The position numbers were made by a program, and so were the translations under genes. From NCBI GenBank assembly GCA_025997135.1, contig BNUE01000018.1:1-21390 (forward strand): a stretch of DNA of 21,390 nt. Direction: 5' to 3'. Every line of letters starts with the position of its first letter. Within the stretch, counting starts at the first letter, position 1. Below are positions 1 through 21,390 of this stretch, in pieces. The notes below the pieces were generated by a model, which saw only the letters and a list, made by a program, of their open reading frames with translations, was not told the DNA's origin and searched no databases. This DNA comes from a candidate division SR1 bacterium (GTDB taxonomy: Bacteria; Patescibacteriota; Gracilibacteria; Absconditabacterales; Absconditicoccaceae).

Positions 1-59
1 GATTTGTTTTTCTGATTCATCTGAGGTGAAGTTTGCTGTTTGTGGTAGTCTATGTTCAT
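1..59 (-). CDS. Start of an unidentified protein (partial)
   Basis: ATG at 59 reading leftward gives an open frame of 19 residues beginning MNIDYHKQQ, rich in Gln, Asn and Lys, and running off the window edge. The upstream region (70-101) is nearly identical to the region in front of the large minus-strand gene starting at 3335, and the start lies at a comparable distance from it. That shared promoter is the main reason to believe this start. The two proteins do not look alike over the visible residues, so nothing can be said about function. Confidence 0.55.
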   Translation of the reverse strand, partial: MNIDYHKQQTSPQMNQKNK

Positions 60-69
60 CTAAGTTTTT

Positions 70-101
70 AATGTAAAAAACTCACAGTTTAAGTATAACT
101 G
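70..101 (-). promoter_or_regulatory. Duplicated leftward promoter/operator, copy A
   Basis: This 32-bp block matches 3346-3377 with one mismatch. It contains TCACAGTTTAAGTATAACTG (82-101). Read on the minus strand it carries a -10-like TATACT (complement of 92-97). The -10 lies inside a dyad, CAGTT-N7-AACTG (85-101), that could be an operator. It probably drives the gene starting at 59. No clear -35 is seen. Confidence 0.55.
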
Positions 102-149
102 GAGATGAAGGGAAAGGCTAGATTGTGATAGATTTTGGAGCGTTTTTAG

Positions 150-178
150 TTGACAATTTTGAAATCTGTATGTATAAT
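150..178 (+). promoter_or_regulatory. Consensus sigma70-type promoter facing right
   Basis: TTGACA at 150-155 and TATAAT at 173-178 are separated by 17 bp, a perfect consensus. The downstream plus strand has no open gene. A transcript would run antisense into the small minus genes at 255-682. The equivalent promoter in the second copy of this module (3427-3456) does face a gene. Confidence 0.7.
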
Positions 179-254
179 ATGTGGGAGTCTGAGCAAGGCT
201 GTGTTTTTTTGGTTTAGGGGGAAAGTAGTAAATATATAGAAATTAATTATTTGG

Positions 255-515
255 TTATAATTGGGATTTTAGATTTTCTGATTGAGACAACTGATCAGAT
301 TTCTGTTTTTGTTTTTCTTCTTCTAAACTCTTTTTTCTTCGATATTCGCGATCATCCCTACATGTTTGTAAAAACTGATTATCTCGATATTTTTGCATCA
401 TTTCATCTGTAAATATCTCTTTAATTTTGAGATCATCAACATTATTAGATCTACCTACAGAATCAGAGAATCTACTCGCCATTTCTCGATTGTCAGTTTT
501 TATATTATAAAACAT
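255..515 (-). CDS. Small charged hypothetical protein
   Basis: An 86-residue protein ending in TAA. It is hydrophilic, with no membrane segment or signal peptide. The C-terminal half (roughly residues 50-80) is a Lys/Glu/Gln/Arg-rich stretch likely to be one long helix. A second in-frame ATG at 482 (MASRF) would avoid the 16-nt overlap with the gene ending at 500 and is an equally good start. It is the last gene of a tightly packed leftward series with the large gene at 984-3335, so co-expression is likely. Family not recognised. Confidence 0.5.
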   Translation of the reverse strand: MFYNIKTDNREMASRFSDSVGRSNNVDDLKIKEIFTDEMMQKYRDNQFLQTCRDDREYRRKKSLEEEKQKQKSDQLSQSENLKSQL

Positions 516-682
516 ATATTGTCATAAAGTTTTATTGTAAATGATTGGTTCGTTATCAAAAAATCAGGTTCGATAATATAATTTTTCATTGTATGTGTTG
601 CTATTTGATGATAATTTTGAGATAATTGTAAATTTTTCCATATTGTAAATTTTAAATAAAATAAAGGTTTTAATAAACTCAT
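500..682 (-). CDS. Small hypothetical protein
   Basis: A 60-residue protein whose ATG (682) follows directly after the TAA (685-683) that ends the frame-shifted tail of the large upstream gene, with no gap. This suggests translational coupling. The composition is hydrophobic and aromatic (many Ile, Leu, Phe, Tyr) without a clean transmembrane helix. It overlaps the next gene by 16 nt. Function unknown; it could be a chance ORF, but the head-to-tail packing argues for a real gene. Confidence 0.4.
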   Translation of the reverse strand: MSLLKPLFYLKFTIWKNLQLSQNYHQIATHTMKNYIIEPDFLITNQSFTIKLYDNICFII

Positions 683-1003
683 TTAATCTAATCATCTAAG
701 TTCTCATCAAGTTTTTTTCGTCAAATCTTCCAAAAAACCTAAAAATATTGGTTCATCTTCTTTTGCTATTTGATATAAATTTTCTATTTGTACGTCAAGA
801 GTTTTTCACTGTATTTCTCATTGTTTAACTTTCCCAATAAAACCATTTTCTATCAAAAACCTTCTACTTTCCGTATCAAATCCTGCTTTTTGTAATTCTT
901 TTGTCTTTTTTAATAATTCATTATATTTTAGACTTCCTATTTCACCTTCCATATTATGAATTTCTATAAGACTAGAAATCTGATTATCTGTTAAATTCAG
1001 CTT
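683..1003 (-). pseudogene. Frame-shifted C-terminal part of the large upstream gene
   Basis: After the in-frame TAA at 986-984, coding-like sequence continues in another frame from about 1003 to TAA at 685-683. It starts KLNLTDNQISSLIEIHNMEG and contains segments such as ELLKKTKELQKAGFDTESRR and FLIENGFIGK. The switch lies at an A6 run (complement of 1002-1007). Removing one A restores a single frame with the upstream gene. Possible explanations are a real frameshift mutation, a sequencing error, transcriptional slippage or +1 recoding. An internal ATG at 952 could also start a separate protein. Confidence 0.6.
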
Positions 1004-3335
1004 TTTTAACTAATTTCTCTTGTGATTGTTGATTAATAGCTTTTCTTATTTCTTCAATATTTCATTCATCCATAATTTTTGAGTTTTCGACATTCATTAC
1101 CGTAATTTCTCCCAGTCTCAAATCATTCAGCATCTGCACATGTACTAATGGTGTCATAATTGTCCCTCATCATGTAATACTACTAAAGTATCATCCAAAT
1201 TTATCAATAATCAGCGTTATGTATCATTTATCAGATGTCAGTGGTAATGTGATATAATATGAATCTTCATCACATAGCTGTCAGCTTTCATTGACATATC
1301 CAGTTGGGAAACCTATCTTCTCAAATACAGAAACTAAAGTAGCATACTTGGTATCTACCTGCGATACTCATGAAAACGAATCTCACTCATAAGTACTATA
1401 CCAGTTATCATACATATTTATGTATTTTCAGTCAGGAAATGACTCTTGAGGATTAAAATCTCTATCAATCATTATATCACCTATACGAAGCCATTTATCT
1501 GTCAAAACAACATGTGCATTGAACCACTCTAAATCATCCGCTGTATAATAAACTTCTTCTTTTTGCTGAATATCGTCTAAATGCTTTACTGTAGGTTTTT
1601 TTATCGCGTCAATGATTTCCTGCATATCTATTGGTTGCTCTGCTTCATCTGTCGATTGCTCTGATTCATCTGTCGGATTTTTCATCCTCTCATCTAATAA
1701 TTGCAGTAACTCTTCATAAGTGATATGTCATGTCTTATCAGTAGTTTCTTTTTTTTCTTCAGAAACTTGTGCTTGATCTTTTAAGTCAGATTTAAAAACT
1801 GCTTTCTTTTCCTGATTTACTTTACTCGTTCTCACTCCTCCACCACTCACCAATCCAGTAGTCAAAGTAGTTAAAATCACAGTCTCCACCCAATCTTCTC
1901 GTCTCGTCATATCTCCGTCAAACTGTGTATCTCGCATCTTATTTGTTATCGCATTCTGCAATTTTTCAGTCAACTGCTGAAGTAATTCCTGTGCGTTTTC
2001 TTTCAGAATCACCTGTGGTAGTTCTTTCCTCAGAATTTTCCCAAGCTTCAACGGTAATTCTGGACTCACAAGTTCCAATATTGACTGTATTCCTGCTAAA
2101 CTTGTCGCATACAGCAGAGCTTTATTATCACTTAATCACTGATTCTTGGCTTCATCAAAAGTGTTTCATACCATCTGGATAAATGACGCACTCACTAAAC
2201 CAGCATTTCCACTCATTCACGCTTTACTCAAAATACTCGCTCCTCATCCTAACCCTACCAGCATATTGATTACCTGCTTTCACACGTGATAAATTATATT
2301 ATATGAATTGGGATTTGCTAGAATGCTAGATGATTGCTGAGTCGAAACCTGTGGTACCAAGTAATTTCTCCAGTTCTCAATTTGATCACTTCTCTGCTGC
2401 CAGTTATCATCTGTAAATTTACTTAAAACTGTGTGATTCACCATCTGCACTGTAGTGTAAACTCACATTGTAATCTCAAATAGTCAGCTCTGAACTGTAT
2501 TTATCAAGTTTTTTCGTGGTTTTAATCGCTCACTGGTCTCATTCCACTCTTGGTCAATCTTTTTTTGACTAAATTCTTGTCTGAGTTGTCTGGTTGATTG
2601 TCGCTCTGAAAGCTCAGTCTTCAACTGCTCAATAGACGCAAAATACTGATCCAAATTGTCTTTTTTATGCAACTCAAAATACTTAAAAAGCCTCGTGAAA
2701 TCTGTAGTCTTTATCTTCAATACCTCATTCATAGTTTGCAGTGATGACTTGATACTGTTCCCTGTCAGTTTATCTCATCTTAGCCTATCTAACATCTGTT
2801 TTCAGGGCGAAAACTTGGTTTTTATAGAATCTTGATAGTTATTAAATAGTTTTATATCTTGATTTAAACCTTCTCAACTAGAATATCAGATTTCTTTCGC
2901 TAAATTTTCTTGTCTCTGATGGATTTTTTCTTGGTATACTTTGAAAGCCTGAACAGCTAATTCATAACTAGCATACTCTGAGGGATCTGTTCATTTATTT
3001 TTATGATTTTGAAGAGCACTGAAATATCTATCTGAATATTTTACTCGCTTTTCTCCATTGTTCTCTAGTTTCTTTAACCAGGCATTGAGAGACTTGATAG
3101 GATCTGGTCATTCGTGAATAATTGGAACCCTCTGCTGAAAAGTCAGCTTTTTTAACTCTTTTTCTGATGGGGTTTTTTCTTTTGGTTGAGTTGAAGATTT
3201 TGGAAGTTTAATAGGAGAATTACTGAGTTGGTAAGCTATGTCTGCTTCTTTGGCTTTACTGAAAAATCATAATGCAGATTTTGGTGTCTGAGGATTTTGA
3301 AGAAAGAGGTGTTGTTGGATTTTATCTATGGGCAT
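984..3335 (-). CDS. Large phage/mobile-element-like protein, function unknown
   Basis: ATG at 3335 opens a 783-residue frame with many TGA codons read as Gly and ending at TAA 986-984. The N-terminal third is charged and helical, with a Pro/Lys-rich start. A hydrophobic Gly/Ala region follows (about residues 345-420, around GKQVINMLVGLGGGASIL and ALLYATSLAGIQSI), and a second Gly/Thr-rich hydrophobic segment lies near 483-502 (VETVILTTLTTGLVSGGG). This spacing resembles the long polyvalent or virion-associated proteins of phages and conjugative elements; that is my inference from pattern only. An acidic Glu/Asp/Pro stretch and a compact tail (EKIGFPTGYVN, PLTSDKGYIT, MTPLVHVQMLNDLRLGEIT) follow. 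The frame probably continued into 683-1003 originally. Confidence 0.75.
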
Positions 3336-3345
3336 CTATTGTTTG

Positions 3346-3377
3346 AATGTAAAAAATTCACAGTTTAAGTATAACTG
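3346..3377 (-). promoter_or_regulatory. Duplicated leftward promoter/operator, copy B
   Basis: Second copy of the 32-bp block at 70-101, with the 20-bp core at 3358-3377 identical. The minus-strand -10-like TATACT (complement of 3368-3373) lies in the dyad CAGTT-N7-AACTG (3361-3377). It lies 11 bp before the ATG of the large leftward gene at 3335, with the -10 box 32 bp from it. Confidence 0.6.
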
Positions 3378-3426
3378 AAAGTAAAGTGAATGGCGAGATT
3401 GTGGAGGGAAAATAAGGGATTTTTAG

Positions 3427-3456
3427 TTGACAAAAGTAACTAATTAGATTTATATG
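3427..3456 (+). promoter_or_regulatory. Rightward promoter of the divergent module, copy B
   Basis: TTGACA at 3427-3432 and TATATG at 3451-3456 are 18 bp apart. The bases before the -35 (tttttag) match those before the consensus promoter at 150. The next plus-strand gene begins at 3548. Confidence 0.55.
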
Positions 3457-3547
3457 CGAAGATAGTGGGACTAAATTCGGCTTGATTTTGATAAACTAAT
3501 TATTAGTATGATATGTACAATTGTTAAACAAAAATTTAAATAATTTT

Positions 3548-3805
3548 ATGAGCAGTATAATAGACAAAATGGGATTTAAAAGAGCAGAAGGTTCTTCCCT
3601 ATCACAGACAGAACGCAATGATTTGGCAGAGATGAGAATCATTTGCAAGAGAAAAGACGAAAAACATTGGTGGAAAATTTTCGTCCTATACAATGAAAAC
3701 TTGTACTCTAAGTGTGTTTATGGGAAAGAGAACAAAGATAGTTTGTTCAAAACAATAACCTATGCGATGTCAATCCACATGTTAGAGGAAGCAGTAGCTT
3801 CTTAA
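3548..3805 (+). CDS. Small hypothetical protein
   Basis: ATG at 3548 gives 85 residues, ending in TAA. A TTG at 3521 would add nine residues but there is no Shine-Dalgarno at either site. The protein is mixed alpha/beta in appearance, with a basic first half, a central RKDEKHWWKIFVLYNENLYS segment and a helical end. No TGA codons, signal peptide or membrane segment. It has its own promoter (3427-3456) and a strong terminator directly after the stop, so it looks like a single-gene unit. Family not recognised. Confidence 0.6.
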   Translation: MSSIIDKMGFKRAEGSSLSQTERNDLAEMRIICKRKDEKHWWKIFVLYNENLYSKCVYGKENKDSLFKTITYAMSIHMLEEAVAS

Positions 3806-3813
3806 TCCAAAAA

Positions 3814-3858
3814 TCCCCATCTAGCTTAATATTTTAGGTTAGATCGGGGAATTTTTTT
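3814..3858. terminator. Bidirectional terminator between convergent genes
   Basis: Arms TCCCCATCTA and TAGATCGGGGA pair with one bulge. T7 follows on the plus strand and T5 on the minus strand. It lies between the plus gene ending at 3805 and the minus gene ending at 3857 and overlaps the stop of the latter. Confidence 0.8.
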
Positions 3859-6439
3859 ATTTGATCATAGCTCTCAGTGTCATAAAATCTGCCTTTCATG
3901 AACCTAGAAGTGGAATTTCGGGAAGAATCTGAACTTCACTAATTTTCACTAAATTGGAAAACTTTTTTTCACGTAAAGTTTTATTTAGCTGTTTTATATC
4001 TATTTTTTCAGTCGAGAAGGCTACAAATTTGGCAGTGCCGTCTTCGTACTCTCTGGCTTCGACAGACAGTCATAATGCCTCCTCGATTGCTGGTAAACTG
4101 ATCATCTCTCAGGCTATCTTTACAAATCTCTTTAGTCTGCCTGATATTTGCAGATTTCCATCATCATCGAAATATCATAAATCTCAGGTGATATAATACT
4201 TTTTACCATCTATATATTCGAATGGGGAGTCTAGCTTGGGGTCTAAATATCCATCAAATACAAAATCTCAGTGTACTAAAATCATTCATTTGTCATTTAT
4301 TAGTATTTCACCTCAGATAATCACTTTTCAACAACTGCCAGGCTTCTCTCCGACCGCGATAATTGGACTACACTCAGTAATACCATATCATTCTAAGAGT
4401 TCAGTTTTTTTATTTTTTTGTCTCATCAGAGTCAGTAGACTGGCAGGGGCTTTTTCTGCTCAGGTAATGGCTAAACGCAGAGTTTTGACCTGAGAAGACT
4501 CGGCTGAATCCAGTATTCTCCTGAAAAAAGTCGGAGTCGATGTGATCAGAGTCGTATGAGTATGAGAAATTAAATCAGATAAAGTCTGAGCATCATTTGG
4601 GTCTGGATAATTGACCGTGCGAAGCCCAGAAATCAATGGAAGAATCGTATTTACAGTAAATCAGAATGAATGGAAAGGTGGTAAAAATGCAAGAAGGATG
4701 TCCGAAGTGCGTATCTGAATACGTCATAATGCTCATACAATGTCTGAGAGTAGATTGCGATGCGTGAGGGCGACAGCCTTTGGTAAAGACTCTGAACCAG
4801 AAGTGAATAGAACGACAGCTGTAGAATTAGGATCTAAATGCGGAATAGAAAATCTGAAAGATGAAATAACGGCTGAAATTTTCTGAAAAATAGATGTCTG
4901 CTGTAAAAGCTCCTCAAAATATGTCATTTCGTAAGTCTGGAGTCGTGGCGTCTGGATTTTCTGAAAAAATGATTTTGCAGTCAGAATTGTTTTTATCTTT
5001 TGTATTTTTAAACAGTGGCGAAATCAGGCTTCTGACTGTGTTCGATTGAGCATTACGGGAGTCTTGGAAGCGAGGTAGCATCAAACTATCAGAAGTGAGG
5101 TCGCCGAAAGCGATGGTAAGAGTATACCAATATGAGACTCTGGAAACCTGCGTAAAATATCTGCGATAAGATATGCCTTGATCAAAAAGGAACGTGAAGA
5201 CTGGACTCCAAAAAGCTGATCATAGCAGACTGATGCTCAGTGTAGACGCTGGAAACTTTTTTTCATCATAGAAATGATTGTATCTGATGGAGTATATGAT
5301 GTCTGGAGATGAGAGTATAGAAGCGTATTGTCTACTGGGAAATCTCGCTTACATGGTTTGAGAGTTGGCTGAGAGGATGAACCTCAAAGTGTCATATGAA
5401 TGAGATCTCAGACGGTTTTGAGGTCTGATAAACTGATATTTGAGGAGTTCGGATATTTTTTTAGGATTTCTTGTTTGAGTGATGCCATATCCAATGAGTC
5501 TAGAAGCAAATCAAGAACTAGGTTTGTATCAAGATTTAACTGAATGGATGGATTTTGTGTAAGTGTCTGAAGCGTCTGAGTAATAAAGTCCATAGTCTCT
5601 GCTGAATAACTCAGATGAGAATAGTCATTCGTAATGCGGAGAGATGAGAGCGAGCCTTCGATTTTGGCTGGAGGGAGGCGATGCTGAACTGTGTCGAAAT
5701 AGGAAAGAGCTGAAACATAATGAACCTCCTCTTCTCATCTAGCATTATACAATTTTTCGAGCTGAATATTGAAAGAATTTATGTCTGAAATGACTTTTGG
5801 TGAACGGAGAATTTTCGTAGCATCTGTTATCTCGATCTCTACCTTGTGCTTTGGAGTGAAGACAAAGAGATTAGCGAGAAGTATCCCTGCTCAGCGAACC
5901 AAAAAAGGGAAAAGGCTGACTCCCCTGCCAGATCGGGCTTTGGATGAACGAGAGCCTCGTAATCAACGGATATTTACTGTAAAAATCTTGGTATCTGCTG
6001 GAGCCTTTTCAACGGCATAAAAAGCTGATTTCTTGCCAATGATAGACTGAAAACCCTGAGCAGACAGTCATCCCTGAGGATAGAGTAGTACACTATGATG
6101 ATGAGTCAGATTTTTGTATATTTGTGAAGTAATCTCGTGTATGTCTAGATGCTGAGATGAATCTGCGTCCAGATCTTCGACGGGTATAGCATTCATAGCT
6201 CTAAAAAAAGGACGAAGCAATGGTTTATCATAATATTTCCTGCTCGAAACTGGATAAAAATTACACTTATGCGAAATATAAGCTGTCATAATCATCGGAT
6301 CGACTAGGGCAATATGTGCAGGCAAAATAAGTGAGGTTTCACCTGGTCTAATAAGGTCTAATCAATGAATCTGCACGTCATAGCGAAAGTGTAGCAATCG
6401 ACGCATTAGTTTTATAAAGACTGATAGGAGTTTACGCAT
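3857..6439 (-). CDS. Acyltransferase - acyl carrier - acyl-ACP synthetase fusion
   Basis: An 860-residue protein from ATG 6439 with many TGA codons read as Gly. Domain 1 (about 1-230) is a PlsC-type acyltransferase: HIALVD at 42-47 is the HX4D motif, and YPQGGLS matches the FPEGxxS block. Domain 2 (about 283-345) is an acyl carrier domain with LLLDSLDMASL; Ser315 is the expected phosphopantetheine site. Domain 3 (about 390-860) is an AMP-forming acyl ligase: TSGSESLPK at 546-554 is the phosphate loop, followed by YGITECSP, ITGDLGYF, GRLKRFVKIAGE and the C-terminal GSGK lysine. E. coli Aas has domains 1 and 3 only. Likely role: activate a free fatty acid, load it onto the built-in carrier and transfer it to a lysophospholipid at the membrane. 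The acceptor is inferred. Confidence 0.88.
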
Positions 6440-6477
6440 TTATAGCTGATTTTGGATTAAAAAAAGTTTATCTCTTG

Positions 6478-6506
6478 AGTATATATTTTTCATATCTAGA
6501 AGGCAA
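6478..6506 (-). promoter_or_regulatory. Promoter of the acyltransferase fusion gene
   Basis: On the minus strand, TTGCCT (complement of 6501-6506) and TATACT (complement of 6478-6483) are 17 bp apart, 38 bp before the ATG at 6439. Confidence 0.6.
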
Positions 6507-6564
6507 TATTTGGCTGAAGAAATAGGAAATTTTTTATTGACTTTTGGCACAAAATATTGCGGGT

Positions 6565-6593
6565 TAAAAAAATGGCAACTGATAAAGCTGCCA
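6565..6593 (-). terminator. Rho-independent terminator
   Basis: On the minus strand ATGGCA and TGCCAT form a stem (6572-6593) followed by T7 (6565-6571). It sits just after the stop of the gene at 6606-6974 and separates it from the fusion gene downstream. Confidence 0.7.
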
Positions 6594-8155: not shown

Positions 8156-8332
8156 ATGGCAAACAAGAAAAAATGAGGAGTCGTAAAAGTTGCGATGGTC
8201 TGTGCAAATTGCAAAGCTACCAACTACTACACCTCTATCAATAAAACTATCAGACCTAAACTGACTATCAAAAAGTACTGTAAACACTGCAAAACAGCAG
8301 TCGAGCATAACTCTAGAGAAAAATTAAAATAG
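8156..8332 (+). CDS. rpmG: Large subunit ribosomal protein L33
   Basis: 58 residues. It is the four-cysteine form: CANC near residue 16 and CKHC near 42 form a zinc ribbon. One TGA codon gives KKKGG near the start, where a glycine is usual. L33 sits near the E site of the 50S subunit. The gene lies 130 bp after ruvB and 45 bp before rpsP, in the same direction. It is too short for many gene callers and is interrupted under the standard code. Confidence 0.92.
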
Positions 8333-8377: not shown

Positions 8378-8677
8378 ATGTTAGCAATTAGACTTTCCAG
8401 ACACGGAAGATCAAAAAGACCCTTTTACAGAGTCGTATTAACTGAACATACAAAACCTGCTAAAAGTGGGTACAAACAAGTTTTGGGGTCATTCGATCCT
8501 ATGAAACACCTGTTCGAAGCTGATGTCGTAGCGATCAAAGAATTGATAGCTCAGGGTGCTCAGCCGAGTGAAAGAGTGGCAAAACTCCTCTTCCAATCTA
8601 CCAAAGATGAATTTTTCCAAAAATATTTTGTCGAGAGAGAGAGAAAATGAGTGACAAAAAATGAGAAAAAAGATTAG
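8378..8677 (+). CDS. rpsP: Small subunit ribosomal protein S16
   Basis: 99 residues. The start MLAIRLSRHGRSKRPFYRVV is the diagnostic N-terminus of S16, a 30S assembly protein. GSFDP follows, then a helical C-terminal part. A TGA at 8648-8650 would end it at residue 90 under the standard code; reading it as Gly adds a Lys-rich tail (GVTKNEKKD) ending at TAG. S16 tails vary, so either length would work biologically, but the code of the window supports the longer form. Neighbours are rpmG upstream and a membrane protein 22 bp downstream. Confidence 0.95.
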
Positions 8678-8699: not shown

Positions 8700-9116
8700 A
8701 TGCCAGAAGATTTTAATAGTCTTTTTAGTTCGACCGAGGATATTATTCTTTTCGTGATGGCGGTTGCCGTATTGGTCGTATTTGCTGGGTGCATTTACGC
8801 CTTTTTTTATGCAATTTATCTATTTATTTTCTCAAAAGGTGAGGATTCCAAGCGTAAAAAAGCACGAGATAGTATCAGATATATGATTATAGGACTGTTC
8901 CTGACTGTGATGTTGTTATTTATCTGACCTCAGATTCTCAGGCTATTCAAGTTGCCAAATTATGAACAGTATAGTGCAAAAAATGTATTTTCCAAGATAT
9001 GAAGCGTGATTACTGGTGTAGGAACTGTAATATGAATAGTAGCTAGAGATTATCCAGGGGTAGGAATCGATGAAAGCACGTCTCGAGATACATCTTCGAC
9101 ATCTTATCAACTCTAA
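8700..9116 (+). CDS. Small membrane protein, pilin (VirB2/TrbC)-like
   Basis: 138 residues with three TGA codons read as Gly. A first hydrophobic segment (about 15-45, DIILFVMAVAVLVVFAGC and onward) is followed by a short basic loop (KGEDSKRKKARDSIRY), a second segment (about 60-76, MIIGLFLTVMLLFIG) and a weaker third one near 105-118. Two helices around a Lys/Arg loop with 'R-x-x-I-I-G' is the layout of VirB2/TrbC-type pilins found beside secretion genes; this is a pattern inference only, as no secretion genes are present here. It ends with a Ser/Thr/Asp tail. A terminator follows. Confidence 0.7.
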
Positions 9117-10656: not shown

Positions 10657-10691
10657 ATATGGATAATTTTTATCTTTATGCTTTGTGGTCT

Positions 10692-10928
10692 ATGAAAACA
10701 GCATTATTTATCCTAGTTTTTGTGCTCGGACTCGTAATTGTTACCTCTATTTTGATGATGAATCCAAAGGATGGCTGAATCGGTATGGGTATCGGCGGAG
10801 CTGCTGCTGGAGGCGGAGGAAATGAATATGGTTCCAAAAAAACTATGGAAGGCAAAATCAAAAAAGTGGCTCTAATTGCTTCAATTCTATTGATGTTGGT
10901 TTGCCTGTTTTTACCTTTTGTGAAATAG
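10692..10928 (+). CDS. secG: Preprotein translocase subunit SecG
   Basis: 78 residues with the SecG plan: a first membrane helix (2-22), a Gly/Ala-rich cytoplasmic loop (MGIGGAAAGGGGNEYGSKKT) and a second helix (about 55-76). SecG joins SecYE in the membrane and assists SecA-driven export. One TGA is read as Gly before the loop. The ATG at 10692 is preferred; an in-frame ATG at 10659 lies too close to the -10 box (10651-10656) to be used from that promoter. The stop is one base before the next ATG, so the two genes are probably coupled. Confidence 0.88.
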
Positions 10929-10929
10929 G

Positions 10930-13059
10930 ATGATTAGTCCACTGTACAAGATGAGTGTCGCGAAGAGATTCTTTAGGTATCTTTTGGCTGTTTTGGTTGT
11001 GTCTCGATGTATTGTCAGCTTTGTTTTGGGCTATTTTTACCTGATATATACAGGAACTGAACAAAGTACAAAAGGATGAACTTTTGTCGAAGGAATTTTC
11101 TCTCAGATTTCTTATTTACCTTACCTAAAAACTGATTCTCAGAGTTTATTTTATCAGAAATTTCTCTTCAGAAACTGTCTAAATCCGTATGAAACAGATG
11201 AAAATGGAAGCTTAAAGCAGGATTTATGCAAAGTATATACTGAAGACAATAAAACTTATATCCTCAAGCTCATAGATGAGATACAGCGAAGCGATGGAAT
11301 GCCTGTCAATATTGAGGATGTTTTTTGGACGTATGATGAAATTATCCGCCAAAATAAGCGAAATATAGCTAGTCTAAATGGACGAAATCAGATCCAAGTA
11401 TCACTAGAGGATGGTAAGGTAAAAGTCGTTTTTCCATCTGCGAGTGAGGATAATCAGCTTTTTTTTACTAATGCAATATTACCAAAACATAGTTTGCTGA
11501 ATGCTAATCTAGATGAATATAGGATCAATTTTGCTGGAAATGTCGTGTCAGATGCCTGCTGAAAACTGGTCAACCAGACAAAAGATATTCAAAGTCTGGT
11601 ATTTGATTTGGGGGAATGTAGAGATACTAATTTTGCTTATTATCAGCTCAAAAGTTATCGTGATTTCGAGGAGATGGACACAAATTTACAGGGCGGAAAA
11701 AAATCTATCATCGATGTGTATGAATGATTATATTCTCTGGAATGATTTGAGCCAAAACGCGTATTGACACCTTATTTATTGGGAATTTTCTTCAATACTA
11801 ACTCATCCAAGATGACTGTGAGGGTGAGGAGATCACTCGCTGGACTAATCAATGCAAAATTTTATACGTGAGATTACCAACAGTATATTCAGCCATACGG
11901 AGGCGACTTTCTGAACCAATTTTATTCCAATGGAGAGAATATAAAAGATTTGATTTCTCGCGTGAATCTAACAGAAGATGAGACAGCAATAAACGAGCAA
12001 GACCTGAAAGAAAGCTGAGCAAAAGAACTCCCAAATAGTATAACTATAAACTGAATAGACAGAAAATTTGTCTTCTTTATGCAGAGGCCTACGGAGTCTA
12101 GAATGCTGGAGGTAAACTTTAATGCTCCTTTTGAAACTGTGAAAATCATAGCTCCAAACTGAAAAGTCTTTACTCCGACATGATACAAAGCGACAGATAA
12201 AAAAGTGTCCTATAAACTGATAAATAATGAGAATCTCAGTCTCTGATCAAATCAATATACGATAAAAGGTACAGTAAAAGGCAAAGAATACACTATCGCA
12301 AGTATAGATATTTATGTCTTTGAACATCTGGATAATTCTCAGAATGCAGATAAAGACTGGAAATTTAACGTGTTGTACTATCATGATGCATCCACTGTAT
12401 TTGTAGTTCAGCAGCTGAAAACTATATTTAGTAACGCTGATATTTTGGATTATTTCACATTTGAAGGGGTTTTTAATGCTGAAGAATTGGAATGAAAACT
12501 ATTGATGTGAAGCTATGACCTATATATCTCGACTATTGACCTAGGAAGTAGGAAAAATGTACTATGATTGTTTTCGACTGATGACGCCTCACTAAATCCA
12601 TCTCAATACAAAAATCCAATCCTAAACTCACTAATCAAACAATATGCAAATAATGCCACTCCAGATATAATCAAGCAGATAAATAATATTTTTTCTCAGG
12701 ATATGCCTGCTATTTTGCTAGGTCATACCTATACTCTCCTACAGATGCAACAGAAGTTGGCTGATGATTTATTCAGTGGCGATGATAGTCTATATGCAAA
12801 TCAGCGAAGAAATCAGGTTTACAAGCACTTTTCTCTGGTGAATAATGTCCGTATAAATATGGATGAAGCTCTAAATCTAGACAGGTTTGTGCAATTTATA
12901 ATTCAACAACTGATGGATCAAAAGAAAAATAAAAATCTGATTAAAACTGGAGAAATGGATATGTGATCAGATAGTGAATGAGTAAACGAAGGTGGTGAAA
13001 TCGAAGTAAGTGAAGGTGATGAAGGTGAAGTTGCTGGTGAAGTAAGCGAAAATATGTAA
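10930..13059 (+). CDS. Membrane-anchored peptide-binding protein, ABC family 5 type
   Basis: 709 residues, larger than typical family-5 solute-binding proteins (about 500-600). One N-terminal membrane helix (about 14-40) acts as an uncleaved anchor. It is followed by GGTFVEGIFSQISYLPYL, the family-5 'GGTlveg...lnPl' opening, then NIEDVFWTYDEIIRQN, matching 'taeDVvfTy', and later SYDLYISTIDLG, near the 'yDl' block. Many TGA codons serve as Gly. The last 40 residues are an acidic Glu/Gly/Ser tail. Such proteins deliver oligopeptides to an ABC permease; no permease gene is nearby. Its ATG is 1 nt after the secG stop. Confidence 0.8.
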
Positions 13060-13761: not shown

Positions 13762-14460
13762 TTAAAAATCCCTAAAAATACGTTTGGTTTTGGTGCGGAG
13801 TTTGCGTACTCTATCTATGTCGTCTAGAGAAATAGGTGAAGATATTTGTGAAAGTGACTGAATATCTGCAGATGATAACTGGACTGTCTGAGTGTCAAGT
13901 GAGGATGGTGAAGATGTGCCTAATGACTGAGCTAAATCTAAAGAATTAGTCGATACAGATGACGTTGTGGTCGTTTCATCGTCTAGCAAGTTTTGTAAGG
14001 CTGTGGTATTTTCTGACTCAGATGAAGACTGAGGACTTATGTCTAGTGGTGGCAAAGTTGTCGATATAGATGAAACAGGTGTTATGGATGGGTCTGATGA
14101 GGGTGATGGTGAATATTGAGATGAAGATGAGGATGAATTTGACTGTGAAGAAGTGAGTTGTGAAGAAGTGGAAGAAGATGAAGCATCGCTAGAGCGTGAA
14201 GAATGATGGGATGATAAAGAAGGATTGGTAAGCAAAAACTGCTCATAATCATAATCTGTCTGTAAATTTACCCAGTATTTCTGCGGTGTCTGAAAGTAGT
14301 GAGAAAGCATATAATCCCGCTGGATAGTTATGTTTCTTTTTCCTTTTATTAATTCGTTTATCTCGCTAACGCTTTTTTTTACTAAAATCGCAAACTCTTT
14401 TTGAGTCATCTCTTGTTGTCTGAGTAATTCTCATATATGGAAACCTGGATGTGCAAGCAA
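13762..14460 (-). CDS. HigA-like HTH regulator with Ser/Thr-rich tail
   Basis: With the TTG at 14460 as start the protein has 232 residues. Residues 1-85 are a HigA/VapI-type XRE helix-turn-helix: HPGFHIGELLRQQEMTQKEF, then SVSEINELIKGKRNIT and PQKYWVNLQTDYDYEQ, closely matching HigA 'HPGe.L.e.l...glsq' and 'fWlnlQ.aYdl'. TGA supplies the Gly of HIGELL. An ATG start at 14409 would cut off the conserved HPG segment. Residues about 90-215 are low-complexity Ser/Thr/Asp/Gln/Pro, unlike normal HigA, which ends at about 100. The last residues are basic (VRKLRTKTKRIF). No HigB/RelE toxin gene is adjacent. The operator array at 14484-14700 suggests autoregulation. Confidence 0.8.
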
Positions 14461-14780: not shown

Positions 14781-14808
14781 AAAAAAGAGAGAAGATAAAC
14801 TTCCCTCT
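14781..14808 (-). terminator. Terminator after the 173-residue gene
   Basis: On the minus strand GAGGGAAG and CTTCTCTC pair (one G-T) around TTTAT, followed by T6. It lies about 45 bp after the TAA at 14855-14853. Confidence 0.7.
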
Positions 14809-14852
14809 ATATGCTTGCCGAAAATGAATGTTAGCACAAATGTAATCCCCGA

Positions 14853-15374
14853 TTACAAAGCTGTCGTCAGATCTTCATAAGTTTCTTTGGCATCTTTCTC
14901 AGAGAGATTAAGTTCTCTGATGAAAACCTTCCTAGCCTGCTGGGCTAAAAAAATTTGTTTTTGCTCCAATTGCCAAGAGTTGTCGATCATCCTAGTATAT
15001 CTAAAGTCCGGAAATCCTTTTTGATATGGAGGAGATATGATTTCCCATTTCCACACACCGTCAAAGCAGGTTTGATCTGCCATTTCGATGCGAGAATGTA
15101 GATACATTTTGTATCTAACTTTTGTGGGAATAATAGCAAAGTTGCTATCTATAATCTGACAATAGCTGGAGATCTTCTCTAGATCCGCAACTAATTGATC
15201 TGTGGAGAATTCTGGATGCTTCTGCATATATTCCCTGACAAATCTACCAATGAACATCATACTTTTATTTCCAGATTTACGTAGATTTTCGTCTACTTCT
15301 AGAAAAAAAGAGACATATTTGTATTTTGGTGCTAAATCGCTCATAAAAAGCGAATGTTGGCTTTCGTCTGCCAT
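14853..15374 (-). CDS. Hypothetical protein, 173 residues
   Basis: A soluble, mixed helix/strand protein starting MADESQHSLFMSDLAPKYKY. No signal peptide or membrane segment. It is rich in aromatics (Phe, Tyr, Trp), with a central FDGVWKWEIISPPYQKGFPD segment and a helical end (EKDAKETYEDLTTAL). No TGA codon. A Shine-Dalgarno-like AGGT precedes the ATG, and promoter and terminator are both clear, so it is a single-gene unit. Family not recognised. Confidence 0.75.
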   Translation of the reverse strand: MADESQHSLFMSDLAPKYKYVSFFLEVDENLRKSGNKSMMFIGRFVREYMQKHPEFSTDQLVADLEKISSYCQIIDSNFAIIPTKVRYKMYLHSRIEMADQTCFDGVWKWEIISPPYQKGFPDFRYTRMIDNSWQLEQKQIFLAQQARKVFIRELNLSEKDAKETYEDLTTAL

Positions 15375-15410
15375 AATTTACCTATATATTTTTTGTTAAA
15401 CTGTTTCTGT

Positions 15411-15438
15411 AATATACTCAATTTTTTTCAAAAGTCAA
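15411..15438 (-). promoter_or_regulatory. Promoter of the 173-residue gene
   Basis: On the minus strand TTGACT (complement of 15433-15438) and TATATT (complement of 15411-15416), 16-bp spacer, GAG just before the -10. Confidence 0.7.
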
Positions 15439-15517
15439 GAGAATTTTTTTTCTAGAATCAACCCATTTATGTACTTGGAGAATACTGACTGAAGGATATT
15501 TTTTGATTGAAATTTAG

Positions 15518-16165
15518 TTAATTAGACAATCAGACAGAAAAAAGCTGAAGGTTATCATAGGTATGACCTCAGGACTTGGTATAAATTTTATCCCCACATA
15601 TTGGATGTCAAATACTGGCAAGGTGAGCACGAATTTGGTGGCGGATACCTTTGGTGATTTGGATGAGCAAAACGCTAGTTCTCGTCTCGGGTAAAAATTC
15701 AAATTCAATGATAGATGTCGACACGTGATGAATGTGTCATTTGGTCTTTTTTTCATCCTCTGGAGACTGGATGACTACCATACGGTCCGGGTTGTAGCGG
15801 TGATGAGCGATAGGATAGGAGATTGCCAACTGATTGTTTGCAATGAAGGAAGTAATATCTCAATAAACCTCTGCAACATAGAGCTTGTGAAGCTGAAAAG
15901 ACCGTTGAAGCTGTTTAAATTCGCGGTAAGCTCTGGGATTCTTGGCGAAATAAAGAAGTCAAGAGGTGTCATTGTCCAGGCGATTAAGGAGTCAGAATTC
16001 TTTTTCTGTTCAGAAGAAAGCTGATAAAGACTGAAAAATAGGGTTAGTGTCGATATGTTGGATAAGATGATCAAGAAAAGAGGATTCTTTGCCAAAAGTA
16101 GAGGGCATACCTGCGGGTTTTCGGAAAAAATAGAAGTTAGAATCTTGGTAATAAGTCAGGTGCAT
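15518..16165 (-). CDS. RluA-family pseudouridine synthase
   Basis: 215 residues from ATG 16165, found only when TGA is read as Gly (eight times). RKPAGMPST near residues 15-23 matches 'nKPaGlpv'. LLNRLDNDTSGLLYFAKN carries the catalytic Asp64 (HRLDxxTSG motif; His is replaced by Asn). ITKGIRHQIRAHLASIGHPI followed by GDKIY is the conserved C-terminal block. It isomerises uridine to pseudouridine in rRNA or tRNA; the target cannot be told. There is no S4 domain in front, as in the shorter members of the family. Two unrelated-looking minus-strand ORFs and a 99-residue plus-strand ORF in this stretch are shadows. Confidence 0.9.
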
Positions 16166-16270
16166 TGTGTAAATTGGAAAGAATATCAAAATTTCTACTT
16201 GATTTTTATCTTTTTTTGTGTATGTTTCAACTACAACTTTAAATAATTTTCATATTAGTATCCCAAAACC

Positions 16271-16305
16271 AAAACGAACTGTTTTATCTTCAGTTCGTTT
16301 TTTTT
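16271..16305 (+). terminator. Strong hairpin with T-run upstream of plus-strand genes
   Basis: AAAACGAACTG/CAGTTCGTTTT, an 11-bp perfect stem with a 9-nt loop, followed by T8 on the plus strand. It terminates rightward transcription, yet no rightward gene ends here; the next rightward ORF starts at 16312. It may end an antisense or small RNA, or act as an attenuator. A weak rightward promoter-like pair lies before it (TTGATT near 16199, TATGTT near 16221). Confidence 0.7.
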
Positions 16306-16311
16306 AATATT

Positions 16312-16503
16312 ATGAATATAGATATGTCTAGATCGCGGATCAAGCCCACAAAGACAGAGCCGTATCTTTCAAGGATTTCAAAGTTTTTTTGATTTTTTGA
16401 AAAATTCTCTTGAAAATGTCCAGCAAATATATATAGTTTTGGAGAAAATGGTTGACTTGTCGACTTATTTAGTTTGTTAGATATGCGGTGAAATGCTACG
16501 TAA
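16312..16503 (+). CDS. Possible small protein overlapping the next gene
   Basis: ATG at 16312 gives 63 residues with TGA as Gly, ending at TAA 16501-16503. It overlaps the ATG (16493) of the large secreted protein by 11 nt. It is basic at the start (SRSRIKPTKTEPYLSRISKF), then aromatic and Gly-containing. The overlap fits translational coupling, but the promoter-like sequence at 16410-16437 inside it and the absence of a known family leave doubt. Confidence 0.4.
16410..16437 (+). promoter_or_regulatory. Promoter of the large secreted protein gene
   Basis: TTGAAA at 16410-16415 and TATAGT at 16432-16437, 16-bp spacer, about 55 bp before the ATG at 16493. Confidence 0.5.
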
Positions 16504-19500
16504 AACCTGAGTTTGAATTCTGATTTTCTGTCTAGTTTTTTGACTATTTTGACCTAGTGGAGAAGGCTTGATGGCTATGGCTGGTGCAAGTCTGAGGATT
16601 TCAGAAGTATATTGGATGGGGAGCAAAGAGCGAGTAGAGATCACGAATATCGGAGATGAAGATTTTGAGGATGAGATTACTTTGAAGGGAATTGGGAATG
16701 ATAAGAAAATTAACCTAAATATACCAGTTCATAGCTCCAAAGTAATAAATGAAGATATAAATCTGAATGATAAACAAGCTTTTTGGCTAGAATTATCAGT
16801 GAGCTGAGAAGTAGTGGATACTTTCGATGGTAGTCAGGAATTAGTAGATCAAGTGAAAAATATCACAGACAATTCTAAGAGAAGCTCTTTGGAGGTGTTT
16901 TTTGATAGCGAGAAATGATCTATTCAGGCGACACCTGCTGAACATAGTCAAAACTCGACAGAATGAAATGCCAATCCGTGAGTGGTTTTCGCAGAGGAAA
17001 ATGTTTTCGAGTGGGCTGAGGGAGATAGATTGGAACGGGTGGAAGGAGATGAGAAAGGAGATGGTGAGAATGATGAACAGGAAGGAGATGTTCAAGATCC
17101 TGGATCAAGTTCAGGATGAGTGGAAGGAGTTTCTGAAACAAATTCAGAATGACAGGAGGAATGAGACATAACTGGGAATTGAGACATAACTGTGAGTGAA
17201 ATTTGGCGAGGAGATGAAAATGTAGAACCATATCTGGAATTTGAGGTGAATAAAAATGTGAATGTAAAATATGAGGAGATTATGATTTCGTGAACTTTAA
17301 TTCAGAATTTTTTAACTTTTGTAAATATATCACAACTTGAGAAAAACGCAAGATGGATCGTAGTGAAAGATGGTCTAAACTTGTCTGCAAGAGGAGTGAT
17401 AACCAATAGCTATCAAACAGGCTTGATGCTCAATAACAGCTGATGAGAACTAGAAATTTGGTGATTGAGTGGACAGGATAGACAGCTTTTAGACAGTGTG
17501 AAGATAGAGCATTGACAAGAGTGAAAATCCAGTTATAATCAGAGTCAAAATCGCTCTAACTGACGCTATATGGACAGGGTGGATTATTTCTCACCAGGCT
17601 TTGATGAGGAGGCTTTGAAGTTTTTTAGGGATGATGATAAGGTAGATAATGATGATGAATTATCTAATGATAATGAATGACAGGTGCTAGAAATATGACG
17701 AGGTGGGATGAATATCATCGAAATAAAATGGCAGGCTCCTGAGCAAATTATGATACAATCAGAACTGGATTTTGATGTTAATTTTAGTCAGAAAAAATAC
17801 TATCTAAATGTACTAAATGCTGATACGCAGAAAACTACCAAAAGATATTTGTCTGGAACACTGGAGGCTGGCGGAAGTGGAGTATTTATGACAAATTGAG
17901 CGTTTCCTGATGTCTGATGATGTGCCAGCGTCCGAAGTGGTGATATTCAGCTGAGCGAATCAAAATGCTGGTCTAAAGAGGTAAAAATAGTTGGCGTATG
18001 ATGAGGCGGTTGAGGAGGAGGCTGAGGAGGAGGCTGACAGAGTGAGTCAATAGCTGAAGTACACATATCTCTCAGAATACTAGATATACTCTGGGATCCT
18101 GACTGAAGCGACACAAATAATGAAACTATCACTCTAAAAAATGACTGAAACGATGCTATAGATCTCAGTAAACTCAAGATGAGAGTAAATACAACAAATA
18201 AAAAGCTGACTGGAATGCTGGAAATCTGAGAGACGAAAACATTAAGATGAACGTTTGGTTTCCCAAATTCTACGAGTGATGGAAGTGAAGTTGTAGTGCA
18301 GATTTTTAGTGGGAATGATGTGTATGCGAGTTTTAATTATCAGCCAAATAAGCCGAAAACTGACACCTGAAAAGCAAAAACAGATGATGAAGAAGATGAA
18401 TATATAGGAAGTGGGGTCGCTCTGTCTATAAACTCTATGAAAATTGAAGAGATAGCTTACAAATCACCTGAAAAGATAATTATCAGCTCTAATTTAGCTT
18501 TTGATGTGAATTTTAGTGATAAAAAATACCACCTGAGAACTCTCAGTAATGCGACTGGAAAAATAACTAAAAAGTATCTGCAATGAACTGTTTTTGCTGG
18601 CACTGAAAATACTTTTTCGACTAATGCAATGTTTGTAGATGCCTGATGATGTGCTGAGATATGGGCAGGAGAAGTGCAGGTAAGTGAAAAAGTCTGCTGG
18701 TGAAAAGAGATTGAGATGAAAAATGAAGGTGCTGAAGATGGTGAAGATAAAGAATGAAAAGATAAAGAAGAAATATTTAAAATCCAGATTGTAAGTATCT
18801 TGCCTAATCCAAAAGGTGCAGATGCAGGTAAAGAAGAGATTGTATTTAGAAGTGAAGAAAATGTGAATTTAAGTCCTGATTTCTATCTACTGATCAATGG
18901 AAAAACTAAAAAAAAGCTGGCAGGGGAGTTAGTAGCAGGGGAAGAGACAGTTGTGAAGGGAACTTTTAGTCTACCAAATACTGCAAGCTGTGTAGAGTTA
19001 TGGAGACAGTCTGTCGTCGTGGAGCCAACTCGCAATCTAGATCCTGAAAAGATAGATACTTTCTGCTATGAGAAGGCAGGCGATGGGATCAGATTTCTCA
19101 GAAATAATGAATCTGTACAAGAAATTCCCAATGAAGAACTGGCTGTCGTGAAAGGTATTACTCTACAAAAGATAAATGATCAGCTTTGTATTACTTATAT
19201 GAAAGTACAGTTCTGATGCAAGAAAATACCGAATTCAACTACTCTAAAAAATGCACAACTGCTCTCTCTACAAAATACATATATCGCAGATATGGAGGAT
19301 ATTCTCAGAGATAAATATTCACTGATTTTCTATGATAAAGAGCTTCAGCAGCTATTTTTGCAATATTCTCAGCAGAAAAAGAAGATAAAAAGCTGAAATG
19401 GTGAAGGCGGAAATGATGATTTAGTAGGGCTTTTCGATGCGTTTCTAGAGAGAGCTGATAAAAGATGAGAAGAATTGTTGTTTGATAGTGTGAAAAATGG

Positions 19501-19609
19501 GGTACCAGATGAATTGAAAGAATGGGTGAATGATAGAAAAGCAATAAAAGTCAATACAATAAACCAAGAAGCAACAATTTTGTCAATTTAAAATTATATT
19601 TTCTAAGTA
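16493..19609 (+). CDS. Large secreted protein with lamin-tail-like domains
   Basis: 1038 residues with dozens of TGA codons read as Gly, ending at TAG. The start gives a classic signal peptide: MLRKTG, a hydrophobic core (VGILIFCLVFGLF) and an Ala-rich cleavage region before about residue 32. Domain 1 (32-110) is lamin-tail-like (LRISEVYW, RVEITNIGDEDFE). An acidic linker follows. Two related modules (406-500 and about 648-745) share NFSQKKYYL/NFSDKKYHL, a Gly-Gly-Cys and a later Cys-Trp. Between them are 13 consecutive glycines (503-515) and a clear lamin-tail domain (520-640, ETITLKNDGNDAIDLSKLKM). A further one spans 762-860 (VSILPNPKGADAGKEEIVF). The C-terminus is helical and charged. Likely a cell-surface or released adhesion/scaffold protein; the ligand is unknown. 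Confidence 0.85.
17096..17155 (+). repeat. Two palindromic repeat remnants inside the coding region
   Basis: ATCCTG-N9-CAGGAT then GA (17097-17119), and TTCTGA-N7-TCAGAA then TGACAGG (17131-17155). Both follow the layout of dispersed palindromic elements ending GGATGACAGG. The reading frame passes through the TGA of each as Gly. Related pieces are in the next gene. Confidence 0.5.
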
Positions 19610-19952
19610 GACAGGTCAACCTACACGACAATCAGACTTTTTGTCTTTTGTTTCAAGATTTTTTAGACAGGAAAATATAAGATAGATTTTTGGGACAGAT
19701 AAAGTCTAGATGTGTCTGTGGTTTTTTGGATTGATGAGGAGAAAAAATGATGGGAAACTCTACTTCAGGACTACTGATGTCTAAAAGTAAATTAAAATGA
19801 ATTAAAAATGCAGAAAAATGACTAAATTAGTCAAAAGCTGTCAAATGGAAAAAGACAGTTCTAGACTGGCAAAACCCCTTGCAATTGGGAGTATTTTTGA
19901 TAAAAGGCTCTTTGTTATGTAAATTTAATGGTTTTATGCATTGATAGTATAT
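19610..19952 (+). other. Gene-free region between two surface protein genes
   Basis: AT-rich with no convincing gene. It holds possible weak hairpins: ACAGA/TCTGT before a T6 (about 19692-19730), CTGTC/GACAG (about 19830-19855), and CCC/GGG before T5 (about 19874-19897), which resembles a decayed copy of the adk terminator. No clear promoter for the next gene could be fixed. Confidence 0.45.
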
Positions 19953-21390
19953 ATGACTTTTATGAATTTATTAAAATCAAAATTATCTAATTTGGAATTA
20001 TCAAGTATTTTTTCATTTAAAAGTTCCCTGGTCTTGCTGGTAGGAATCGAGACTTTTGCGTTGTTTAATGTGGTTTATACTATGATGGCAGTGTGATATG
20101 AAACTGAGATAATGAATGAAATCAATGAAATAGCTGTAAATATGCATCCTTGAGATAATTCATCTGATCATAGCTCTGCAGATAATACAGAAGCCGCACA
20201 GCTGCCACTACCTAGATGAGGGAGATCTTTTGATAGTGATGAATGATGAATAATTAGCGATGAATGAAGTGAAGAAACCGTAGGTAGTACTGAGAGTGAA
20301 AATAGTTCTAGCGATGGAGAAAGTGGAAGTGGAGAAAATGATCATCAAGAGACTGAAACAAATTCAGAACCACAGGAAAACAATGAAGAAAAGTCTGAAT
20401 GAAGTGGTGAATGAAGTGAAAATAATACAGGTAGTACTGAGAGTGAAAATAGTTCTAGCGATGGAGAAAATTGAAGTGGAGACTCTGAAACAAGCTCGGG
20501 ATGACAGAAGGAAAATGAAGGAAAATGAAGTGGTAGTGATACGTGAAATGAACTAAGCTGAAGTGATATCTGAAGTGAAAATAATACAGGTAGTACTGAG
20601 AGTGAAAATAGTTCTAGCGATGGAGAAAATTGAAGTGGAAAAAATGGTGATGGATGATTAGTGATTGATGGTGAATGAGGGTCCCCGCAGTTTAATACGG
20701 GGCAGGCAGGATGACAGGAGGTAGAGATTGTAGAGAAGCCAACTGTACCTAGCAAACCAGCTAAATCCACTCTAAAACGTGCAAATACGAACTATCCATG
20801 ATGTGATGGCAGAGATTTTATCGTATGAGACCACACTATCGCTGCATGTAATGTCTGAGCAAACAGTGAATGAAGAGATGAAAACGCTGGATGAAACGTA
20901 TGATTTCATTTTCAGTGGGGGAATGGCTACGGATGGAGTCTCTCTACTTCCGCATCTAATATTATGAAATCTAGCTCAGCGACAGCACAAAATGTGATAC
21001 AATACTGACCTACTAATCCATACTCTCAGCGTATCTGGAGCACTCTAAATCCACGAGATACCACACCTGCGAATAAGAACCTCTGGTGAGGACTAGAAAC
21101 ATATGATGATCAGAGAAAATGACCATGTGCCGACTGATATCACGTACCGACTGTCAATGAGTGGCAGTCCGTAGTCTCTGAGGCTAGTAAAGACCTAGAG
21201 ATTCAGCTTTCTTTGCCTTTTGGTGGTTATCGTGCGTATGCAAATGCTGAGATCAGTAATGCTGGAGTTCAAGGATATTTCTGGACTGCAAATAGAGGCA
21301 ATAGTACAGATGCGACCATCATGTCTATCTCCTCTAGCTCTGCGAGCATGTTGCCACTAAATATCAGCAATGGTGTGAATGTGAGATGTT
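19953..21390 (+). CDS. Surface protein with FISUMP-like domain (partial)
   Basis: 479 residues visible, running off the window, with many TGA codons as Gly. ATG at 19953 or 19962. One membrane segment near residues 24-48 (SLVLLVGIETFALFNVVYTM) anchors it. Residues about 75-260 are Ser/Glu/Gly/Asn-rich with three copies of GSTESENSSSDGE. After a Pro-Lys linker comes a Cys-containing globular domain: DHTIAACNVG, FHFQWGNGYGWS, GPCADGYHVPTVNEWQS, LPFGGYRAY, GYFWTA and GVNVRC. This is the layout of the Fibrobacter-major-paralogous (FISUMP) domain, common on surface proteins of these phyla. It probably projects the domain outside the cell on a flexible acidic stalk. Confidence 0.8.
20283..20335 (+). 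repeat. Intragenic repeat, copy 1 (diverged)
   Basis: Shares GGTAGTACTGAGAGTGAAAA and what follows with the copies at 20430 and 20589. It differs at the end, where AGT GGA stands in place of AAT TGA. Both GGA and TGA mean Gly here. Confidence 0.85.
20412..20480 (+). repeat. Intragenic repeat, copy 2
   Basis: 69 bp identical to 20571-20639 (offset 159, i.e. 53 codons), keeping the reading frame. Confidence 0.95.
20571..20639 (+). repeat. Intragenic repeat, copy 3
   Basis: Exact copy of 20412-20480; encodes GSENNTGSTESENSSSDGEN and on. The acidic stalk appears to have grown by in-frame duplication. Confidence 0.95.

Follow-up and report, generated by a model that had tools for sequence, protein, structure and literature searches.

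UGA as glycine and CGA/CGG as tryptophan in an Absconditabacteria (SR1) chromosome fragment, and a probable separate origin of the UGA reassignment

Results

The stretch of DNA analyzed here (the window, 21,390 nucleotides, positions 1 to 21,390 of contig BNUE01000018.1 in assembly GCA_025997135.1 of a candidate division SR1 bacterium) carries 20 open reading frames (ORFs), among them genes for RuvB, an M50 site-2 protease, a PlsC acyltransferase-ligase fusion, and an RluA-type pseudouridine synthase, and its subject of interest is the genetic code in which these genes are written. The 20 ORFs comprise 6,172 codons, including 168 internal TGA codons, and TGA makes up 38.8% of the glycine codons of the window (n = 433). 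TAA (12) and TAG (7) occur solely as the 19 terminal stops, the remaining ORF being open at the window end; however, the ORFs were called with TAA and TAG as stops, so the absence of internal TAA and TAG is partly circular. A first-pass annotation of this DNA had proposed that its genes are interrupted by TGA alone and that UGA is read as glycine under code 25. The codon counts agree with the former proposal, and the meaning of TGA was tested independently by aligning homologues with every TGA set to X.

Conserved proteins placed glycine opposite TGA. We looked for 17 ribosomal proteins across 55 genomes of the window's class and obtained 16 for the genome to which the window belongs (the own genome). 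These 16 contain 33 TGA codons, 19 of which fall where standard-code families show at least 80% conservation, and the conserved residue was glycine in 17 of these, aspartate in one, lysine in one, and tryptophan in none. When nine genomes of the window's family (f1) were pooled at a 60% threshold, glycine accounted for 370 of the 415 cells listed at TGA columns, close to the 428 of 467 listed at GGA columns of the same genomes. For the M50 protease, 80 named loci served for comparison; L360 to L362 were left out as SR1-type or unclear, leaving 77 non-SR1 loci. Glycine was found opposite TGA55 in 77/77 and opposite TGA91, the AGPA glycine named in the first-pass annotation, in 76/76, and no scan pattern covers either position. 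TGA67 also faced glycine in 77/77, but it lies inside the scan pattern FGWGKPVQ (residues 64 to 71), which biases that count upward; the counts were 60/77 for TGA63 and 6/14 for TGA194.

Similar results came from alignments to proteins of known structure. In RuvB, X57 faced glycine in both 3pfi and 1in4, bearing out the earlier claim that the first glycine of Walker A is encoded by TGA; X28 and X253 also faced glycine, and X48 and X252 did not. The same annotation had placed TGA at two conserved RluA glycines. This held for the TSG site (X69), with glycine in all five alignments shown, and in part for the IGHP site (X186), where glycine was found in 2i82 (RluA), threonine in three RluD chains, and a residue other than glycine in 5uba. 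The ligase fusion has TGA at several AMP-ligase motif glycines when compared with 4-coumarate-CoA ligase chains. In the HigA-like protein, the TGA of the HIGELL motif (residue 10) lay opposite aspartate in 7csv and 6jpi by phmmer; were the alignment shifted by one motif, it would presumably meet the HPGE glycine.

Several observations weigh against glycine as the uniform partner of TGA. Two of the 19 conserved ribosomal columns were not glycine, as stated above. Within the M50 protease, glycine was opposite TGA19 in 1/77 loci (mostly T, S, or P), TGA166 was mostly opposite A, R, or F (n = 55), and TGA187 had no glycine among the residues listed (n = 31). Some TGA codons of the window thus lie at variable or non-glycine columns, and not every TGA marks a conserved glycine. 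In addition, many metagenomic database relatives carry tryptophan at glycine columns of the window, including 116 of 119 at TGA58 of RluA. Since tryptophan is found in these rows (P0007-P0245 and P0249-P0270) even opposite GGT or GGC codons of the window, they look like translations under table 4, in which CGR is likewise rendered as arginine. Database relatives were therefore not relied on to decide the TGA residue, given that their mixtures of tryptophan and glycine mislead residue tallies.

The extent of UGA use varied widely among recoded genomes, from 1% (G140 and G079) to 93% (G012) of ribosomal glycine codons (loci L245 to L299). G140 belongs to the same genus as the window, and the own genome stood at 17% in ribosomal genes, compared with 38.8% of glycine codons in the window.

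The rest of the own assembly (1.04 Mb, 93.8% complete) was searched for decoding and termination machinery, as the first-pass annotation had suggested looking for a tRNA with anticodon UCA and for a missing RF2. Both findings went the way it had anticipated. Of 39 tRNAs identified by Rfam, one has the anticodon UCA (G000:C15:19582-19655, 74 nucleotides), with acceptor pairs G1-C72, C2-G71, and G3-C70 and discriminator U73, which are glycine identity bases. It is separate from tRNA-Trp(CCA), which has G73, and was labeled tRNA-SeC by ARAGORN. RF1 is marked by a PxT-type motif, and a PF00472 search of the own assembly gave a single release factor match, identified as RF1 by its motif PDT. RF2 was not found in this search, although the assembly lacks about 6% of the genome, and absence is therefore not absolute.

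The RF1 gene itself (L031, G000:C24:4034-4366) contains eight TGA codons in frame, and its catalytic GGQ motif is spelled GGA-TGA-CAA. Among 17 RF1 genes of f1, TGA encodes one or both GGQ glycines in 10 and both in 3. Because the GGQ motif of RF1 itself uses UGA, termination in cells with such a gene depends on UGA being read as glycine, which locks the UGA change in. No earlier report of UGA inside the GGQ motif of RF1 was recognized in a limited literature search of titles and abstract beginnings. The f1 RF1 proteins (L031 and L103 to L118) have also diverged past GGQ, reading GGQNANKNQTGVR in the own genome and GGQHVNK in f14 and f22 (L101 and L102), and the PxT motif varies within f1 as PDT, PET, or PAT.

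Twelve additional release factor-domain matches were seen in f1 genomes, 11 of them with loci (L119 to L129). Nine (L119 to L123 and L126 to L129) read as short GGQ proteins in frames of 127 to 212 residues rather than as RF2; judged by length, these proteins of several f1 genera may be ArfB-like. No second release factor-domain match was found in the eight searched genomes of the window's genus.

The CGA and CGG codons of f1 did not behave as arginine codons. Ribosomal alignments of the nine f1 genomes include 12 columns with CGA or CGG, and among the 90 partner codons in these columns there were 48 TGG, 19 Tyr, 13 Phe, 3 His, and 2 Gln codons, one codon each for Pro, Cys, Val, Leu, and Asn, and none for Arg. 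Against the standard-code consensus (n = 11), CGA of f1 met H in four columns, W in three, P in two, and F and Y in one each, with no R. At CGU columns of f1, by comparison, R accounted for 31 of the 40 listed, and CGA columns were mostly R in f14 (16/18), f22 (90/104), and f24 (23/30). In the 17 RF1 sequences of f1, two columns swap TGG for CGA (10 TGG and 7 CGA; 11 TGG and 4 CGA, plus two Leu codons), and a third holds nine TTT, four CGA, two TGG, and two others; four more CGA-holding columns, at or before the start codon, were excluded. The six CGA positions of the window ligase, compared across 11 loci from 10 relative genomes, gave 39 TGG, 16 CGR, 5 other, and 0 Arg codons in 60 non-gap cells. 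CGA66 of the M50 protease faced W in 77/77, a count biased by its location within the scan pattern, and TGG in L360 and L361.

The tRNAs of the own genome fit the same pattern. Those with anticodons UCG (C20, G73) and CCG (U20, G73, A1-U72) are without A20, and those with anticodons GCG, CCU, and UCU have it. Taken together, the alignments and tRNAs indicate that CGA and CGG are tryptophan codons in Absconditabacteria family f1, whose code is not the one laid down in NCBI table 25. The first-pass assignment to code 25 was thus right for UGA and wrong for CGA and CGG, which change 35 residues of the window. Likewise, tryptophan is encoded by TGG as it had said, but CGA and CGG had been omitted. 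The gene boundaries that it drew stand, since the change in CGA and CGG touches no stop codon.

Two builds of UCA tRNA were found among the genomes that read UGA as glycine. A TTCAGC-type UCA tRNA was detected by pattern search in 41 of 49 f1 genomes, and 34 of the 37 fetched f1 loci gave this type by ARAGORN, all with G37; the other three had been fetched for a different match in their genome. These counts use the f1 UCA types alone; many pattern matches outside f1, f22, and f24 are other tRNAs, for example with CAT or CAC anticodons. A second build, characterized by A37, a length of 79 nucleotides, a different D arm, and an encoded CCA, was present in 52 of 55 genomes of f14, f22, and f24, and all 30 fetched loci of this type read as UCA tRNAs with A37. 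A search of the 49 f1 genomes gave no such tRNA, apart from one match with three mismatches. Mean identity reached 91% among f1 sequences and 90% for f14 against f22, compared with 65 to 67% between f1 and f14, f22, or f24; unrelated tRNAs share 55 to 70%. Between the own genome and G178, identity was 89% for tRNA-Gly(UCC), 78% for tRNA-Cys, and 67% for tRNA-Trp.

Genome G012, the one representative of family f12 (GC content of 25%), reads UGA as glycine to a greater extent than any other genome counted, with TGA as 211 of 226 ribosomal glycine codons (93%). Glycine was found in 137 of 145 informative ribosomal TGA columns and in 19 of 20 TGA columns of PheT. Of the other database PheT rows, the nearest 23 include 13 with W at 14 or more of 26 conserved glycine columns, as table 4 translations would. 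The G012 loci are L291, L328 to L347, and L440 to L479.

Trees were built by FastTree (50 taxa), with a mixture model (24 taxa), and with bootstrapping (14 taxa). Five of the 55 genomes with under half of the columns (G019, G001, G015, G023, and G035) were left out of the 50-taxon tree; G023, of family f17, was restored in the two smaller trees at 48% of columns filled, and the other taxa of these trees were chosen by the authors. Families f1, f14, f22, and f24 fell together on one side of a branch with support of 99 (24 taxa) and 100/99 (14 taxa), and G012 was sister to f17, which uses the standard code, with the same values (99 and 100/99, respectively). FastTree, without f17, joined G012 to f11 (0.986). 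Constraining G012 into the f1/f14/f22/f24 clade was rejected (p-AU of 0.0049), a P value that is not strictly preplanned, as the AU test was run after the FastTree result. By taxonomy, G012 and f17 belong to a single order, represented here by two genomes. The standard code was assigned to f17 from two observations: none of its 104 ribosomal glycine codons is TGA, and its rplB has no TGA. G023 has two release factor-domain matches, which may include RF2, and 0/7 of its scored ribosomal genes end in TGA. The f17 alignment count includes one X residue, and the codon count shows no TGA there. No UCA tRNA was found among the 26 tRNAs identified by Rfam in the 617 kb of G012, a genome of about 700 kb.

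The genes of the window are listed in Table 1. The start of the solute-binding protein gene is uncertain, with TTG at 10876 and codons counted from 10936, which is not a start codon. The product of the repeat-rich gene at the window end has a GSTESENSSSDGENGSG-type unit that recurs internally, and that of its neighbor, the lamin-tail-domain-like gene, has a long polyglycine run. Minus-strand frames opposite these two genes, at 16477-17406 and 20075-20770, encode similar peptides (HPELVSESP and SEFVSETP), which suggests a dispersed DNA repeat within coding sequence.

Table 1. Predicted genes of the window, with matches and codons of interest
Feature	Position	Strand	Matches and codons
Two small ORFs, 146 and 89 aa	255..952	-	No Pfam match; 7 TGA, 4 CGA
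783-aa protein	984..3335	-	No Pfam match; 24 TGA, 6 CGA
PlsC acyltransferase and AMP-binding ligase fusion, 860 aa	3857..6439	-	PF01553, PF00501; 24 TGA (Gly), 6 CGA (predicted Trp, including GLWGS at residue 161)
RuvB, 314 aa	7081..8025	+	PF05496/PF05491; 5 TGA; start ATG
Ribosomal protein L33	8156..8332	+	PF00471 (8159-8329 searched); 1 TGA; ATG at 8156
Ribosomal protein S16	8378..8677	+	PF00886; 1 TGA
Type IV secretion pilin-like membrane protein	8700..9116	+	PF18895; 3 TGA, 2 CGA
SecG	10659..10928	+	PF03840; 1 TGA
Family 5 solute-binding protein	10876..13059	+	PF00496 (weak, below cutoff); 15 TGA, 5 CGA
M50 site-2 protease, 217 aa	13092..13745	+	8 TGA (Gly), CGA66 (predicted Trp, FGWGKP)
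HigA-like HTH protein	13762..14460	-	PF01381 (just below cutoff); 7csv, 6jpi; 1 TGA, 1 CGG
RluA-type pseudouridine synthase	15518..16189	-	PF00849; 8 TGA, 1 CGA, 1 CGG
Large lamin-tail-domain-like protein	16493..19591	+	PF00932 (weak, below cutoff); 42 TGA, 4 CGA, 1 CGG
Repeat-rich protein, probably surface	19941..21389, open at window end	+	No Pfam match; 28 TGA, 1 CGA

Discussion

With a probability of roughly 0.95, we read the window as a piece of the chromosome of an uncultured member of the Absconditabacteria (SR1) in which UGA encodes glycine and both CGA and CGG encode tryptophan. The alignments give the codon meanings, the tRNAs and RF1 are present, and RF2 was not found in the assembly searched. 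Loss of RF2 would have ended the use of UGA as a stop, leaving RF1 for UAA and UAG, and a dedicated tRNA(UCA) would then deliver glycine at UGA. Its charging by glycyl-tRNA synthetase is suggested by its identity bases and by published work on SR1. CGA and CGG would be read by the tRNAs with anticodons UCG and CCG, and we infer tryptophanyl-tRNA synthetase as their charger because both carry G73 and neither has the arginine determinant A20. CGU, CGC, and AGR would remain arginine codons by way of the GCG, UCU, and CCU tRNAs, which retain A20.

Plain table 25, in which UGA is glycine and CGA and CGG are still arginine, has been registered for both SR1 and Gracilibacteria, and the predominance of arginine at CGA columns of f14, f22, and f24 is what it would predict. 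We nevertheless consider it very unlikely for the window, as f1 showed no arginine codon among the 90 partners of its CGR columns and no arginine at its 11 conserved CGA columns, the ligase exchanges CGA and CGG with TGG rather than with arginine codons, and A20 is missing from exactly the two tRNAs that would read these codons. A code of the table 4 type, with UGA as tryptophan, gains apparent backing from the tryptophan seen at UGA columns in many database relatives. It is less probable still, and is refuted by the standard-code references, in which 17 of the 19 informative columns of ribosomal proteins had glycine and none had tryptophan; in addition, tRNA(UCA) has U73 and GCG acceptor bases, and the CCA tRNA has G73. 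Least probable of all is that UGA encodes selenocysteine or is a true stop in decayed genes. Although ARAGORN called the UCA tRNA a tRNA-SeC, it is an ordinary 74-mer, TGA is frequent (168 in window ORFs, 33 in ribosomal proteins, and 8 in the RF1 frame), and the conserved glycine columns refute both variants.

Beyond the window, UGA was probably reassigned to glycine more than once, separately in f12, which sits among standard-code families. The UCA tRNA, and perhaps the reassignment, may also have arisen twice within the known clade. For f12, the argument is that G012 groups with a standard-code family rather than with the recoded ones. A composition rich in A and T would presumably draw G012 toward the other recoded genomes, so its placement runs counter to that bias. 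Several limits apply to this argument: the amino acid makeup of G012 was flagged as unlike the rest of the alignment in the 24- and 14-taxon trees, f12 is represented by one genome and f17 by 48% of columns, and neither a UCA tRNA nor a release factor, RF1 included, was found in the 617 kb available. For the UCA tRNA, the low identity between the two builds carries less weight than it might seem, as the orthologous tRNA-Trp is also only 67% identical, and separate descent cannot be proven from identity values by themselves. The D arm, the base at position 37, and the encoding of CCA, in which the two builds differ, also enter the argument. These findings would be consistent with a decoding tRNA that was born twice, or was replaced, or diverged fast.

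The use of UGA as glycine in f12 is not itself new, as an NCBI PheT entry of a "Candidatus Gracilibacteria" bacterium is translated with glycine; a separate origin would be, and is offered here as a lead. A 2026 review (PMC13293708) confines the recoding to a single lineage that goes back to one ancestor, a statement that a separate origin in f12 would contradict. No report against a single origin was recognized among the titles and abstract beginnings listed in searches that covered no preprints. Reassignment of a stop codon to glycine is commonly treated as a one-off. If a second, low-GC origin is true, it becomes a repeatable event in which the order of RF2 loss, tRNA birth, and codon takeover can be compared, and the unlike UCA tRNAs and the UGA codons in the GGQ motif of RF1 offer handles on how recoding arises and becomes irreversible. 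In practical terms, annotation of the Absconditabacteria family needs a three-codon code, as table 25 gives arginine for tryptophan at 35 codons of this window alone.

The nearest named relatives of the M50 protease are from Absconditabacteria STD2_163 (54%) and SR1 RAAC1_SR1_1 (55%), and among the named matches several bear names of Absconditabacterales or SR1 and one a name of Gracilibacteria. Membership of the window genome in the Absconditabacteria (SR1) family is supported, narrowing the first-pass placement in either Absconditabacteria or Gracilibacteria to the former.

NCBI table 25, which reportedly goes back to Campbell and to Rinke in 2013, resembles the window in UGA as glycine, a UCA tRNA, and no RF2 found, and differs from the window's family in keeping CGA and CGG as arginine. 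Families f14, f22, and f24, probably Gracilibacteria-type if the label is taken from the literature, share UGA as glycine and, in most genomes, a single release factor match, and are sister to f1 in the tree. They are unlike f1 in that CGA is mostly arginine and in their 79-nucleotide UCA tRNA with A37 and encoded CCA.

The closest known system is the Absconditabacteria code predicted by Shulgin and Eddy in 2021 (PMC8629427), with UGA as glycine and CGA and CGG as tryptophan; that paper gives as rules a UCA tRNA with G1-C72, C2-G71, G3-C70, and U73 and a Trp-type tRNA with G73 and not A20. The assignment of CGA and CGG to tryptophan is repeated in PMC13092985, and PMC4032931 and PMC13293708 provide further published basis for the code reading. 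The window shares with the predicted code all three codons, both tRNA rules, and the GCG tRNA for CGU and CGC. No difference in code from the window was apparent, and the consulted passages of PMC8629427 do not describe UGA in the GGQ motif of RF1. Thus, the window adds a member to an already published code rather than a new code.

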